Shown here one piece after another: positions 1,865 to 41,038 of a stretch of DNA of 64,000 nt (position 1 is its first letter; each line of letters starts with the position of its first letter). This stretch comes from Chlorobiota bacterium (lineage in GTDB: Bacteria; Bacteroidota; Ignavibacteria; Tepidaquicellales; OLB5). The stretch lies in NCBI GenBank assembly GCA_022616535.1, contig JAKEEM010000007.1, forward strand, positions 1-64,000. The letters run 5' to 3'. A program made the position numbers and the translations under genes. The notes under the pieces are model-generated. The model ran no database searches. It was given only the letters and a program-made list of their open reading frames with translations, and was not told where the DNA came from.

Positions 1865-2473
1865 TTAGGAATTTAAGCTTTCTTCGATAAGCTTATTTAC
1901 CGTATCCTTACCTTCACCGGTAATAGCCGAAAAAGGGATGTAATCTTTGCATAAATCATCGTTGCTCACTATTTTGCTTGTCCTGTAGATTTGGCGTTCC
2001 ATCTTATTGGCTGAAATTTTATCCGCCTTGGTGAGTACAATAGCGTAGTTCAATTCATAATACTCAAGCCAGTTTATCATCAGCTGGTCTAAATATGTGG
2101 GGTCATGCCTTGAATCCATAAGCTCAAACACAAGCTTGATGTTATCTCGTGTGCTAATGTATTCTTCCACAAGCTTCCTCCAGCCTGTTTTAATTTGCTC
2201 GGGCACCTTTGCATATCCGTAGCCGGGCAAATCGACAAAGTAAAAGGATTCGTTAATCAGGTAGTAGTTTAACATGCGTGTCCGTCCGGGAACAGAGCTT
2301 GTTTTAGCAAGCTTTGATTTGCTGCATATTTTGTTTATTAACGAGGATTTCCCGACATTCGAGCGACCTATGAATACAATTTCCGGTAAATGTGCGGCGG
2401 GAAGCTGATCTAAATCAGAAACGCTATTTACAAATTCAGCTGTTACTATTTTCATTAATTTTAGGTAACTCAA
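1865..2473 (-). CDS. engB: Ribosome biogenesis GTP-binding protein EngB/YsxC
   Basis: Small GTPase of the TrmE-Era-EngA-YihA-Septin superfamily needed for assembly of the large ribosomal subunit. At 202 aa it has the family length. G1 is GRSNVGKSS at residues 36-44, the G2 threonine lies in SSVPGRTRMLNYY, G3 is DLPGYGYAKV, G4 is TKAD and G5 resembles FSAITGEG. A second in-frame ATG at 2455 (MKIVTAEF) matches the usual N-terminus better and may be the real start. It lies 19 bp downstream of rplQ at the end of the ribosomal cluster, which suits its function. Confidence 0.93.
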   Translation of the reverse strand: MSYLKLMKIVTAEFVNSVSDLDQLPAAHLPEIVFIGRSNVGKSSLINKICSKSKLAKTSSVPGRTRMLNYYLINESFYFVDLPGYGYAKVPEQIKTGWRKLVEEYISTRDNIKLVFELMDSRHDPTYLDQLMINWLEYYELNYAIVLTKADKISANKMERQIYRTSKIVSNDDLCKDYIPFSAITGEGKDTVNKLIEESLNS

Positions 2474-36920: not shown

Positions 36921-38156
36921 TTATTCAATAATTTTTGTTACGACACCTGCACCAACCGTTCTTCCGCCTTCACGGATAGCGAACCTTAATCCCTCTTCCA
37001 TTGCGATGGGGGTAATAAGCTCGACCTTCAAGTTATCAACGTTATCCCCGGGCATAACCATCTGCACTCCGTCAGGAAGGTTAACTACGCCGGTTACATC
37101 AGTAGTTCTGAAATAAAACTGCGGCCTGTAATTACCGAAAAACGGAGTGTGTCTTCCGCCTTCTTCTTTGGAAAGAACATAAACCTGGCAATTGAAGGTC
37201 TTATGCGGAGTAATCGAAGCGGGCTTTGCGACGACCATCCCGCGTTCAATGTCATTCTTTTCAACGCCTCTTAAAAGCAGTCCCAAATTATCGCCTGCGA
37301 TACCTTCATCAAGCTCTTTCTGGAACATTTCGATTCCGGTTACAACGGTTTTTTTATGCTGTCCAAGTCCTATTACTTCGACTTCCTCACCCATTTTTAC
37401 TTTCCCTCTCTCAACTCTTCCGGTAGCAACAGTTCCGCGCCCTGTTATTGAAAATACATCTTCTACGGACATTAAGAACGGCTTATCAACTTCTCTTGCG
37501 GGCTCGGGAACATAATTATCAACCGCATCCATCAGGTCATAAATACATTTTAAAGCAGGGTCGTCCGTGGAAGTTCCTTCCTTGAGACCCACCTCCATCG
37601 CCTTCAATGCACTTCCTCTGATTATAGGAATTTCGTCCCCGGGGAACTCATAGCTCTTTAATATGTCCCTTAACTCGGATTCAACGACCTCAAGAAGCAA
37701 TTCGGCATCTTCAGGTGTTTTCTCCTGTTCATAAATCATATCAACCTTGTTCAAGAAAACAACAATTCTCGGCACTCCGACCTGTCTGGCTAAAAGAATA
37801 TGCTCTTTTGTCTGTGGCATGGCACCGTCATTAGCCGCAACAACAAGAATAGCTCCGTCCATCTGTGCAGCACCCGTTATCATATTTTTTACATAGTCAG
37901 CGTGTCCCGGACAGTCAACGTGGGCATAATGCCTTTTGTCGGTCTCATACTCAACGTGAGCGGTAGCAATCGTTATTCCTCTTGCTTTTTCTTCGGGAGC
38001 ATTATCGATTGAATCGAACGCCCTGACTTTTGCCTTACCCTTTTTTGCCAGTGCCATTGTGATAGCAGCTGTAAGTGTCGTTTTTCCATGGTCAACGTGA
38101 CCGATGGTGCCGACGTTTACGTGCGGTTTGCTTCTATCGAACTTTTCTTTAGCCAT
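36921..38156 (-). CDS. tuf: Elongation factor Tu
   Basis: Delivers aminoacyl-tRNA to the ribosome. G1 is GHVDHGKT (19-26), G3 DCPGHADY and G4 NKVD; domain 2 carries [20 protein letters not shown] and domain 3 ends [16 protein letters not shown]. At 411 aa it is about 15 residues longer than E. coli EF-Tu, with small insertions such as [20 protein letters not shown] and [11 protein letters not shown]. Shine-Dalgarno TTAGGAGA lies 11 nt upstream. Confidence 0.98.
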
Positions 38157-38256: not shown

Positions 38257-38298
38257 GATTCTTCCCTGCCCCTGCAGGCAGGCGCCTCGCTCAGAAAT
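38257..38298. repeat. REP-like nested palindrome (copy 2 of 3)
   Basis: On the minus strand CTGAGCGAGGCG runs into the palindrome CCTGCCTGCAGGGGCAGG and then GAAGAATC. Same design as copies at 16341-16384 and 38905-38944. It lies between the tRNA-Ile region and tuf. Confidence 0.75.
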
Positions 38299-38318
38299 TA
38301 CACTAAAGTGAACAAGGG

Positions 38319-38380
38319 ACCCCGAGTTCTCGGGAGAACCTCCCACCTTATAGCGGGACGCTCTTAAGCTCTGAGCTACT
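38319..38380 (-). pseudogene. Decayed tRNA copy with palindromes in place of arms (copy C)
   Basis: The minus strand keeps AGTAGCTCAG of the D arm, AAGAGCG, then TCCCGCTATAAGG in place of the anticodon arm, then GTGGGAGGTTC as in the neighbouring tRNA-Ile T arm. The rest of the T arm is replaced by the palindrome CCCGAGAACTCGGGG. The acceptor stem is absent, so no tRNA can form. It lies 15 bp downstream of the intact tRNA-Ile. Confidence 0.65.
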
Positions 38381-38395
38381 TTTAAAATTTTAAAG

Positions 38396-38469
38396 TGGGC
38401 CAGGGAGGAATCGAACCTCCCACCTCGTGCTTATAAGGCACGCGCTCTAACCGACTGAGCTACTGGCCC
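38396..38469 (-). tRNA. tRNA-Ile (anticodon TAT)
   Basis: A complete 74-nt cloverleaf. Acceptor GGGCCAG / CTGGCCC with discriminator A; D arm GCTC-AGTCGGTTA-GAGC; anticodon stem CGTGC / GCACG around the loop CTTATAA, giving anticodon TAT; variable AGGTG; T arm GGAGG-TTCGATT-CCTCC. The body resembles the usual bacterial tRNA-Ile(GAT) with G34 changed to T. Anticodon UAU would read AUA directly. CCA is not encoded. Confidence 0.93.
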
Positions 38470-38641
38470 GGTAGTCAGTTGGAAATCTTCAATTAAGACC
38501 CTTGATGTTGAAGATTTTACAGAATTTTTACGTTAACCTAAATTGACGAGTCCCGAATAAATCGGATTGACCCAAATTTTATTTAAAGAACACTTATAAC
38601 TTCGAGAAATCTTTTTATTCCCCGTTTTTTAATCTTCGCAT
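38470..38641. repeat. Duplicated tRNA leader segment, copy A
   Basis: About 170 bp upstream (transcription sense) of tRNA-Ile are clearly similar to 38744-38910: shared words include GAAGATTTTACAGAA, TTTACGTT, ATTGACG, GTCCCGAATAA and TTTAAAGAACA. It contains an inverted repeat AAATCTTCAA / TTGAAGATTT. No open reading frame is evident. The 38157-38947 gap otherwise holds only the tRNA, its decayed copies and repeats. Confidence 0.85.
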
Positions 38642-38682
38642 TGCCATGGCGACTCAATCTCTTATCTAAATTAGAAGTAGAG

Positions 38683-38745
38683 CCTTAGAACCTCTCACCT
38701 TCCCGCCTATGGCGGGACGCTTCTAACCTACTGAGCTACTGGCCA
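38683..38745 (-). pseudogene. Decayed tRNA-Ile copy with a palindrome replacing the anticodon arm (copy B)
   Basis: The minus strand reads GGCCAGTAGCTCAGTAGGTT as in the intact tRNA-Ile, then AGAAGCG, then the palindrome TCCCGCCATAGGCGGGA where the anticodon arm should be, then AGGTGAGAGGTTC. The 3' acceptor strand is missing. It is followed upstream by the second copy of the leader segment. Confidence 0.7.
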
Positions 38746-38910
38746 GCACTCAGTTGTAAATCCTCAGTTTAAGACTCTTAATCCTGAAGATTTTACAGAA
38801 CGTTTACGTTTACCTAATTGACGGGTCCCGAATAATCGGTTTGACCCTAAGTTTTTTAAAGAACATTTATATCTTCAAGAAACCTTTTTGATTCCTCACT
38901 TCTTAATCCT
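38744..38910. repeat. Duplicated tRNA leader segment, copy B
   Basis: Second copy of the segment at 38470-38641, diverged by roughly a fifth of positions by eye. Its hairpin stem reads AAATCTTCAG / CTGAGGATTT, that is, changed on both strands compared with copy A but still able to pair (one G-U). Confidence 0.85.
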
Positions 38911-38944
38911 GCCTACTGCATGCAGGCGCTTTCGCTCAGAATCT
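38905..38944. repeat. REP-like nested palindrome (copy 3 of 3)
   Basis: On the minus strand TCTGAGCGAAAGCG followed by CCTGCATGCAGTAGGCAGG. It ends a few bases before the fusA stop codon. Confidence 0.7.
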
Positions 38945-38947
38945 TTA

Positions 38948-41038
38948 TTAAGCAGCTTCTTTGCCTTTGAACTTTTCTATAATCTGGTCTGAAATCGATT
39001 TCGGCACTTCCTCATAGTGAGAAAACTCCATATTATAAATCGCACGCCCCTGAGTCATAGAGCGCATCGAAGTAGCGTAACCGAACATTTCCGAAAGCGA
39101 CACCATTGCTCTTATCACCTGTGCATCCGCGCGCTGGGACATACCTTCGATTTTTCCCCTGCGTGAGCTTAAATCACCCATAATATCGCCCATATACTCA
39201 TCAGGAGTGGTTACTTCGACTTTCATAATCGGCTCAAGTATAACCGGACCTGCCTTTAAAGCGCCTGACTTAAAAGCTATGGAACCCGCAATTTTAAAAG
39301 CCATTTCCGATGAATCAACCTCATGGTAAGAACCGTCAAACAAAGTAGCTTTAATATCTTCCACAGGATAACCAGCAAGAACACCATTTTTCATTGACTC
39401 TTCGATACCATCTTCAACAGCGGGAATGTATTCTTTCGGAATAGAGCCTCCGATGATTTTATTTTCAAATATAAATCCTTTGCCTTTTTCATTCGGCTCA
39501 ATTGTAATCCAAACATGCCCAAACTGCCCGCGTCCTCCGGACTGCCTTACAAACTTTCCTTCCTGTTCGACTTTCTTAGTAATTGTTTCCTTGTATGCAA
39601 CCTGTGGTTTACCGATATTAGCTTCGACTTTAAACTCCCTTTTCAGACGGTCAACTATAATTTCAAGATGTAGCTCTCCCATACCGCTTATCAAGGTCTG
39701 ACCGGTTTCTTCATTAGAAGAAATCCTCAAGGTTGGGTCTTCCTCTGCAAGCTTGGAAAGGGACTCTGAAAGCTTATCCTGGTCGGCTTTGGTTTTCGGC
39801 TCAATTGCAATAGAAATAACCGGCTCAGGGAACGTCATTCTTTCTAAAATTATCGGGTCTGATTCATCGCAAAGTGTATCGCCTGTTTTAGTATATTTTA
39901 ATCCTATTGCAGCAGCGATATCACCTGCAAATACTTCATCGATGTCTTCCCTATGGTTGGCGTGCATTTGAAGCAGTCTGCCGATTCTCTCTTTTTTATT
40001 AGAATTCGGATTGAAAGTATATGAGCCTGCTTTCAAAATCCCGGAATACACCCTGAAAAAAGTAAGCTTGCCGACAAACGGATCAGTCATAATCTTAAAA
40101 GCTAGAGAGGAAAATTTTTCTTTATCGTCAATTTCCCTTGTTATATGGTCATCGCTGTGAATATGGTGACCCCAAACCTCGCCGATGTCCTTCGGGCACG
40201 GAAGATAATCAACTACTGCATCAAGCAGAGACTGAACCCCCTTGTTCTTAAACGAGGAGCCGCAAAGAACAGGGATAATCTTAACCTTCAGCGTAGCCTG
40301 CCTTAAAACCTTTTTAATTTCCTGCTCCGTAATTTCCTTACCGTCAAGATATTTGCTTAAAAGAGTATCGTCTTCTTCAGATACCGCTTCAAGAAGCTTA
40401 ATTCTGTACTCTTTTGCTTTTTCAACTAGCGAAGCGGGAATTGCCTGCTCATCCCATGTCTGCCCAAGAGTATCGGCATTATAAATCAGCGCTTTCATTG
40501 TGATTAAATCAATCTGTCCCACAAACATTTCACCCTGACCGATTGGCAGCTGAATTGGAACGGCATTAGCTTTAAGACGCTGCTTCATCATATCGATAAC
40601 ATTATAGAAATCAGCACCGGTTCTATCCATTTTGTTGACAAAAGCAATTCTTGGAACACCGTATTTATCAGCCTGTCTCCAAACTGTTTCGGACTGCGGT
40701 TCAACACCGCCGACGGCACAGAACAATGCAACTGCTCCGTCAAGAACTCTTAACGAACGCTCAACCTCTGCGGTAAAATCAACGTGTCCGGGTGTGTCTA
40801 TTATATTTATTCTGTGCTCTTTCCAGAAACAGGTTGTTGCAGCGCTTGTGATTGTGATACCTCTTTCTTTTTCCTGCTCCATCCAGTCCATAGTAGCAGC
40901 ACCTTCGTGAACCTCGCCCATTCTGTGCAAACGTCCTGTATAATACAGAATTCGCTCCGTAGTTGTAGTTTTACCGGCATCGATGTGAGCCATTATACCA
41001 ATATTACGAGTCTTTTCTAATGTTACTTTTCTTGGCAT
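38948..41038 (-). CDS. fusA: Elongation factor G
   Basis: Translocase of 696 aa. G1 is AHIDAGKT (17-24), G3 DTPGHVDF and G4 NKMDR; domains II-V follow, with domain IV containing [15 protein letters not shown] and domain V ending with [20 protein letters not shown]. The length and motifs are those of canonical EF-G1. It lies downstream of rpsG in standard str-operon order; the tuf gene after it is separated by the tRNA region. Confidence 0.98.

Follow-up and report, generated by a model that had tools for sequence, protein, structure and literature searches.

Palindromised tRNA copies between fusA and tuf in a Chlorobiota genome: probable scars of a tRNA-targeting GIY-YIG element

We find that the region between fusA and tuf in the window (the whole 64,000-nucleotide stretch of contig JAKEEM010000007.1 analysed here) is quite probably the degraded remnant of a small mobile element resident at tRNA genes. 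It would best be read as the scars of a tRNA-targeting, SegB-like free-standing GIY-YIG element, and this reading draws on observations of anatomy, recurrence, isotype specificity, presence or absence in close relatives, and remnants in the window. One point against it is that the nuclease lacks the extra DNA-binding domain of known GIY-YIG homing nucleases.

Layout of the fusA-tuf locus

Along the minus strand, fusA is followed by a leader, copy B, a second leader, the intact tRNA-Ile(UAU), copy C and finally tuf; the parts are as follows.

38948..41038, minus strand: fusA, ORF of 696 aa, the neighbour on the upstream side
38859..38910, minus strand: probable GIY-YIG C-terminal remnant 1 (RIKK*GIKK / KRFLEDIN), frame-broken
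38745..38908, minus strand: leader copy 1 with boxA-like TGTTCTTTAA, in a 226-bp direct repeat with leader copy 2 (81%)
38688..38744, minus strand: tRNA-Ile copy B, nt 2-57, truncated at GGTTC in the T loop (blastn)
38701..38717, minus strand: palindrome TCCCGCCATAGGCGGGA, standing where copy B would have its 17-nt anticodon arm
38601..38678, minus strand: GIY-YIG remnant 2, TSNLDKRLSRHGNAKIKKRGIKRFLE, with an internal deletion (tblastn E=5e-5)
38470..38634, minus strand: leader copy 2, which belongs to the intact tRNA (direct repeat; conserved in relatives)
38395..38469, minus strand: intact tRNA-Ile(UAU) (ARAGORN; Rfam 74.8 bits; locus conserved through the order)
38319..38384 (about), minus strand: copy C, a partial tRNA on the downstream side of the intact one (self-alignment with copy B)
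38346..38358, minus strand: half-eroded palindrome TCCCGCTATAAGG at the anticodon arm of copy C (sequence)
38320..38335, minus strand: palindrome TCCCGAGAACTCGGGG, sited within the copy C T loop (sequence)
36921..38156, minus strand: tuf, ORF of 411 aa, the neighbour on the downstream side

The direct repeat comprises the leader and tRNA nt 1-57 (E=3e-48), in agreement with the claim of an earlier, sequence-only reading that a unit of tRNA and leader is present twice. That reading described the repeated interval as leader; the leader is indeed duplicated, but GIY-YIG remnants lie inside the repeats as well, and the nuclease gene that accompanies the copies had been missed. Remnant 2 has copy B on one side and the second leader on the other, the start of this leader overlapping the end of the remnant; its tblastn target is the ORF that a relative (G005) has at this site. 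Remnant 1 gives weak tblastn pieces against the Ile-site ORFs of relatives (E 0.09-0.6) and sits ahead of a leader copy, matching the arrangement in G003, G005 and G011. Judged from these matches, the nuclease gene in the window appears to have shrunk to one clear and one probable remnant. The two palindromised copies, B and C, would be the scars left around a functional tRNA-Ile(UAU).

Copy B matches nt 2-57 of the intact tRNA (blastn E=1.8e-8), and, as had been claimed, its anticodon arm has been swapped for a palindrome: TCCCGCCATAGGCGGGA, a 7-bp perfect stem, takes the place of nt 27-43, and the same nucleotides are swapped likewise in relatives. Copy C (80% identical to copy B in self-alignment, E=5e-6) is the third tRNA scrap that had been noticed past the intact gene. 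Its arms were described only partly correctly: there is a palindrome at the T arm, but it is inserted after GGTTC and does not cleanly replace the arm, and the anticodon arm does carry a palindrome, which is half-eroded. Uneroded equivalents of the latter are found in five relatives (G001, G003, G005, G008, G012). Similarly, the word decay suits the element, which is degraded in this strain, but not the palindromised copy, which is itself a regular part of the element.

ARAGORN and Rfam recognise only the intact tRNA at the window locus. Its UAU anticodon is conserved, between fusA and tuf, across the order; in most bacteria the AUA codon is read by a lysidine-modified CAU tRNA. The whole tRNA array is bracketed by the near-direct repeats CAGGCAGGCGCCTCGCTCAGAA and CATGCAGGCGCTTTCGCTCAGAA (window 38265-38300 and 38907-38945), and the CATGCAGGCGCTTTCGCTCAGAA stretch has just one further near match in the genome.

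Recurrence at tRNA genes within and beyond the order

The order fusA, tRNA-Ile(UAU), tuf is conserved throughout the taxonomic order, and the content of the spacer varies within the same family. It is empty in four genomes (G004, G009, G010, G013), while three (G001, G008, G012) have one or two palindromised partial copies behind the tRNA. In G003, G005 and G011 we find a palindromised tRNA ending at GGTTC(A), a GIY-YIG ORF and a second leader with an intact tRNA, followed downstream by palindromised partial copies, whose number ranges from 1 to at least 5; two genomes of another family (G034, G028) follow a like plan with TGGCGCTTTCAGCGCCA. Across leader and tRNA, the filled G008 and the empty G010 are 98.5% identical, and G003 and G010 are 96.3% identical, so that gain or loss is recent. 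The alignment of related strains that the sequence-only reading had proposed thus turns up both empty and filled sites among close relatives. No site-specific recombinase gene was found in the fusA-tuf spacers (at most 1.1 kb), which hold only the GIY-YIG ORF, and no Y1 tyrosine transposase in the filled Ile sites, where the GIY-YIG is the sole ORF.

Palindromes confined to this locus, the case that the earlier reading had set against itself, are not what we find: they recur at further tRNAs of the same genome. We took the flanks of all detected tRNAs and examined 46, and 11 gave partial-copy matches, one of which (Trp) is mere cross-similarity to the Gly copy. Palindromised copies adjoin Ile(UAU), Ile(GAU) in the rrn spacer, Asp, Leu(CAA), Leu(UAG), Gly, Gln(CUG), Cys and Ser(GCU), as well as Leu(UAA), where they occur twice in tandem. 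All five single-domain GIY-YIG matches of this genome adjoin tRNA genes. In its exact form, TCCCGCCNNNGGCGGGA has two occurrences in the genome, each within a tRNA hybrid, and a generally dispersed palindrome was rejected on this ground. A weak tRNA-like sequence after tRNA-Ala in the rrn spacer of this genome (L016, about 1913-1990, minus strand), called tRNA-Tyr(AUA) by ARAGORN, is possibly another pseudo-tRNA.

The geometry of the exchange is regular. In seven isotypes (Ile(UAU), Ile(GAU), Gly, Thr, Gln, Leu(UAA), Pro) a palindrome of 15-21 nt replaces nt 27-43, give or take one nucleotide, that is, the whole anticodon arm; the commonest exchange puts TCCCG..CGGGA in place of the entire 17-nt arm. 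In tRNA-Asp, in at least 8 genomes, the junctions lie at nt 50 and 59, with varying interiors on a common TCCCG/CGGGA base. The position varies by isotype between anticodon arm, half T-arm and D loop, a variation that a single cut site would not lead one to expect and that counts against the proposed element. GC-rich palindromes (arms of at least 6) are present in 36 of the 56 partial tRNA copies of the order, whereas random genomic segments gave 2.4 and shuffled copies 2.5, with a maximum of 6 in either control; intact tRNAs are free of them. The earlier observation of different palindromes exactly at tRNA hairpin positions thus extends to many tRNAs, genomes and phyla. CGTC precedes the stem in 9 and CATC in 20 of the 33 tRNA-copy palindromes, AT pairs are absent, and the CGTC tag with AT pairs at the stem base that marks CGTC-tagged REPs was not found in these palindromes.

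Of 14 upstream copies, eight break off at the GTTC of the T loop. For Gly and Pro, this tetranucleotide is common to the tRNA and to the boxA-like GTTCTTTAA of the leader, possibly as a microhomology join. Downstream copies mostly start in the D loop, the TAG of which can act as the stop codon of the ORF. The T-loop motif GTTCSAWTY is gone from T-loop-truncated copies and from half-T-arm swaps, and is retained in several downstream copies (L093, L059).

The link between these copies and one class of nuclease is close. Among 20 related Ignavibacteria-type genomes surveyed at the level of the order, 43 of 86 single-domain GIY-YIG matches have an intact tRNA no more than 400 bp away, in every case with the same strand orientation, where we estimate about one such match to be expected from tRNA density. 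The ORFs split into a short class (about 80-90 aa) and a long class (97-125 aa). Short ORFs are found at tRNA or tRNA-hybrid loci in 48 of 49 cases, a figure that includes five at contig ends or in arrays that were judged by eye, while the long class is not tRNA-linked. An independent phylum-wide sample gave 26/29 near a tRNA for the short class and 0/27 for the long class, with strand agreement in 26/26. In a maximum-likelihood tree, whose few alignment columns leave deep forks poorly supported, ORF clades correspond about one-to-one to tRNA isotypes: there are 14 isotype changes, where the minimum is 13 and the shuffled mean 42.6, and none of 200 shuffles was as low. Single isotype clades (Asp, Pro) extend over two families of the order, and in being bound to an isotype the clades would resemble site-specific homing enzymes.

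The proteins are predicted to be GIY-YIG nucleases from their domain (PF01541, the GIY-YIG catalytic domain, E 1.6e-17 to 6e-17) and from the catalytic-type residues Y5, Y16, G18, R26, H30 and E62, which are invariant in 15 tRNA-linked ORFs. The domain takes up nearly all of the 80-90 aa protein, which has no separate C-terminal DNA-binding domain. As with free-standing homing genes, the ORF adjoins its presumed target gene and the target is lineage-specific; by anatomy, the proteins thus appear to behave like such genes, without the DNA-binding domain of the known ones. At L205 and L240 the C-terminal residues of the ORF (GVEQPGSSQGS, AELVDLLRLASQSGARRA) resemble translated tRNA sequence, which gives rise to misannotated termini.

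Beyond the order, 84,980 species genomes were scanned, the query being a Ser-type alignment that over-samples tRNA-Ser; this gave 80 loci, 35 of them within 400 bp of a tRNA and all of these on the same strand. These 35 belong to Bacteroidota, Ignavibacteriota, Calditrichota, Fidelibacterota, Omnitrophota, Firestoneibacteriota (Firestonebacteria) and several CPR phyla. Palindromised copies occur in other phyla too, for example at tRNA-Asp in Gottesmanbacteria, with TCCCGACTCTGTCGGGA, and across 61 loci from the wide scan and the phylum sample a partial tRNA copy was present at 53 and a palindrome flanked by tRNA sequence at 34. Many of the genomes are MAGs; closed or near-closed and cultured genomes give the same pattern, and Pedobacter ureilyticus and Flavobacteriaceae PS02338 (loci L200 and L190) are carriers in culture. 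Viral contigs were scanned for relatives that would indicate phage carriage, and none were found. A third GIY-YIG clade, with an LKSYFTG C-terminus, is common in Bacteroidota (many loci, L213-L265) and has few palindromes; no tRNA or rRNA was found near its loci.

Proposed mechanism and alternative explanations

On this reading, the intact element has a short nuclease gene of the single-domain GIY-YIG type with a copy of the same tRNA gene on either side, each nuclease lineage being bound to one isotype. One tRNA copy remains intact, allowing the cell to survive, and the other is truncated at the D loop or T loop, with one or more hairpin arms replaced by a perfect palindrome. The nuclease may cut the tRNA gene, and the T-loop GTTC is the likely site because breakpoints fall there and by analogy with phage SegB; repair of the break could then yield tandem tRNA copies and spread the element. 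The palindrome would probably disarm the spare copy, both as a nuclease target and as a tRNA. As several downstream copies retain the T loop, loss of the T-loop site alone would be insufficient for immunity, and the anticodon arm or the overall arm structure would need to matter too. The exact exchange of arms might be explained by structure-specific cutting at hairpin bases, which is one possibility.

A variant of this explanation, which differs in the role given to the palindrome, is addiction: the element palindromises the resident tRNA and supplies its own intact copy, so that the cell cannot lose it. At L059, L071, L096 and L209 the palindromised halves do lie outside, with the ORF and intact tRNA inside. 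Many loci are palindromised on one side only, however, and the empty sites in close relatives imply that loss or non-acquisition is tolerated, for which reasons we regard addiction as possible but rather doubtful. Less probable, and in our view unlikely, is that the palindromes are independently mobile REP-like units that enter any hairpin, with the nuclease neighbours hitch-hiking. Such units would account for a core common to several isotypes, for palindromes in D, anticodon and T arms alike, and for the 74 TCCCG..CGGGA sites in this genome (18 for the reversed control); yet no fewer than 11 of these 74 are located inside partial tRNA copies, which span well under 0.1% of the genome, exact TCCCGCCNNNGGCGGGA is limited to two tRNA hybrids, and intact tRNAs are spared.

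The sequence-only reading had also offered that the copies were rebuilt by template switching. Local switching or quasi-palindrome correction during replication could have perfected the imperfect hairpins of duplicated tRNA copies, and both the siting of palindromes at hairpins, with junctions at arm bases, and the proneness of tandem copies to switching agree with this. The palindromes are not perfected forms of the arms they replace, however: unrelated tRNAs and isotypes carry the same TCCCG..CGGGA core in their anticodon and T arms, on which ground de novo switching was rejected, and tRNA-Asp copies share their junctions yet differ in their interiors. Switching would moreover leave the near-total link with one nuclease class unexplained, and we hold it to be highly improbable. 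We give equally little credence to the hybrids being a conserved structured RNA, such as a tuf regulator or a decoy tRNA, an outcome that had been named as adverse to the earlier reading. Although the hairpin is retained with a constant 17-nt length and a variable interior, and recurs at the same site, this fits poorly with close relatives that share the fusA-tRNA-tuf order and have no hybrids, with the same hybrids beside many tRNAs with unrelated neighbours, and with copies that have lost one acceptor strand or the T arm. No Rfam family matches the hybrids; even at a loose threshold Rfam returned only the intact tRNA and a below-threshold match on its opposite strand. The relatives and the Rfam result led us to reject this candidate.

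If the tRNA-targeting GIY-YIG element is real, one of the most strongly conserved classes of bacterial genes is the regular home of a minute selfish nuclease that ranges over Ignavibacteria, Bacteroidota and further groups as far as several CPR phyla, and palindromised tRNA halves are its visible fossil record. It would account for the tRNA fragments that clutter many genomes, and it would be the chromosomal counterpart of the phage SegB system. How an 85-residue protein selects one tRNA, and what mobilises CGTC-type palindromic repeats, would become testable at the bench. In the openly readable full-text literature we found no account of GIY-YIG elements that are linked to bacterial tRNAs and accompanied by palindromised copies, and no earlier description of tRNA copies with whole hairpin arms swapped for perfect palindromes, which is not proof of absence.

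Relation to known systems

Like integrase-type tRNA islands and phages, the elements have an intact tRNA on one side and a partial 3′ copy on the other, but here there is no integrase, only a single ORF of about 250 bp, and the partial copy begins in the D loop and bears a palindrome. The nearest solved relatives by sequence (E=5e-7) are single-domain GIY-YIG proteins of the UPF0213 type (EF2693, BH0048), which are alike in domain and size; we know of no report of UPF0213-type proteins as tRNA-linked mobile genes. Rickettsia palindromic elements reside mainly in protein ORFs, unlike the palindromes in the tRNA copies described here, and to our knowledge have no GIY-YIG link. They are likewise palindromic inserts within genes (PMC3733652).

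The long GIY-YIG class often has a palindrome, [CT]GTCATNCCCGCGAANGCGGGNATCCA, 9-27 bp upstream of its start, sometimes with an inverted copy downstream (L072, L086, L100, L104, L079, L080, L120, L123; in other families L276, L270, L272, L274). It is present at 14 of 36 long-class ORFs (2.4 expected) and at 9 of 27 in the phylum sample (1.4 expected), and from its sequence it appears to be of the CGTC-REP type; a rival reading is that these are translational-control hairpins, as in T4 seg genes. According to a published survey, CGTC-tagged REPs have no known transposase or mobiliser (PMC3733652). REP/RAYT systems and CGTC REPs resemble our elements in that small GC-rich palindromes are tied to a nuclease gene, but the enzyme here is a GIY-YIG nuclease, whereas RAYT is a Y1 tyrosine transposase, and the palindromes here lie inside tRNA copies, mostly without CGTC tag and AT pairs. 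Speculatively, small single-domain GIY-YIG proteins could be general palindrome-handling mobility enzymes, one branch of which swaps the hairpin arms of tRNA copies and so gives rise to tRNA-nested elements across phyla, while a sister branch, lying between inverted CGTC-type REPs, might mobilise these.

The closest parallel in mode of action would be SegB, the GIY-YIG nuclease of phages T4 and T6, which cuts within tRNA genes at RAWTSGAAC, a motif complementary to GTTCSAWTY of the T loop, and whose breaks lead to tandem tRNA amplification (PMC13096335). In both systems a GIY-YIG nuclease gene adjoins tRNA genes (PMC13096335; PMC2988022), and the breakpoints at GTTC and the tandem tRNA copies found here fit SegB chemistry. 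SegB is phage-borne, whereas the elements described here sit on bacterial chromosomes and encode a single domain of 80-90 aa in strictly isotype-specific lineages. They differ also in their palindromised tRNA copies, which the SegB literature consulted does not report.
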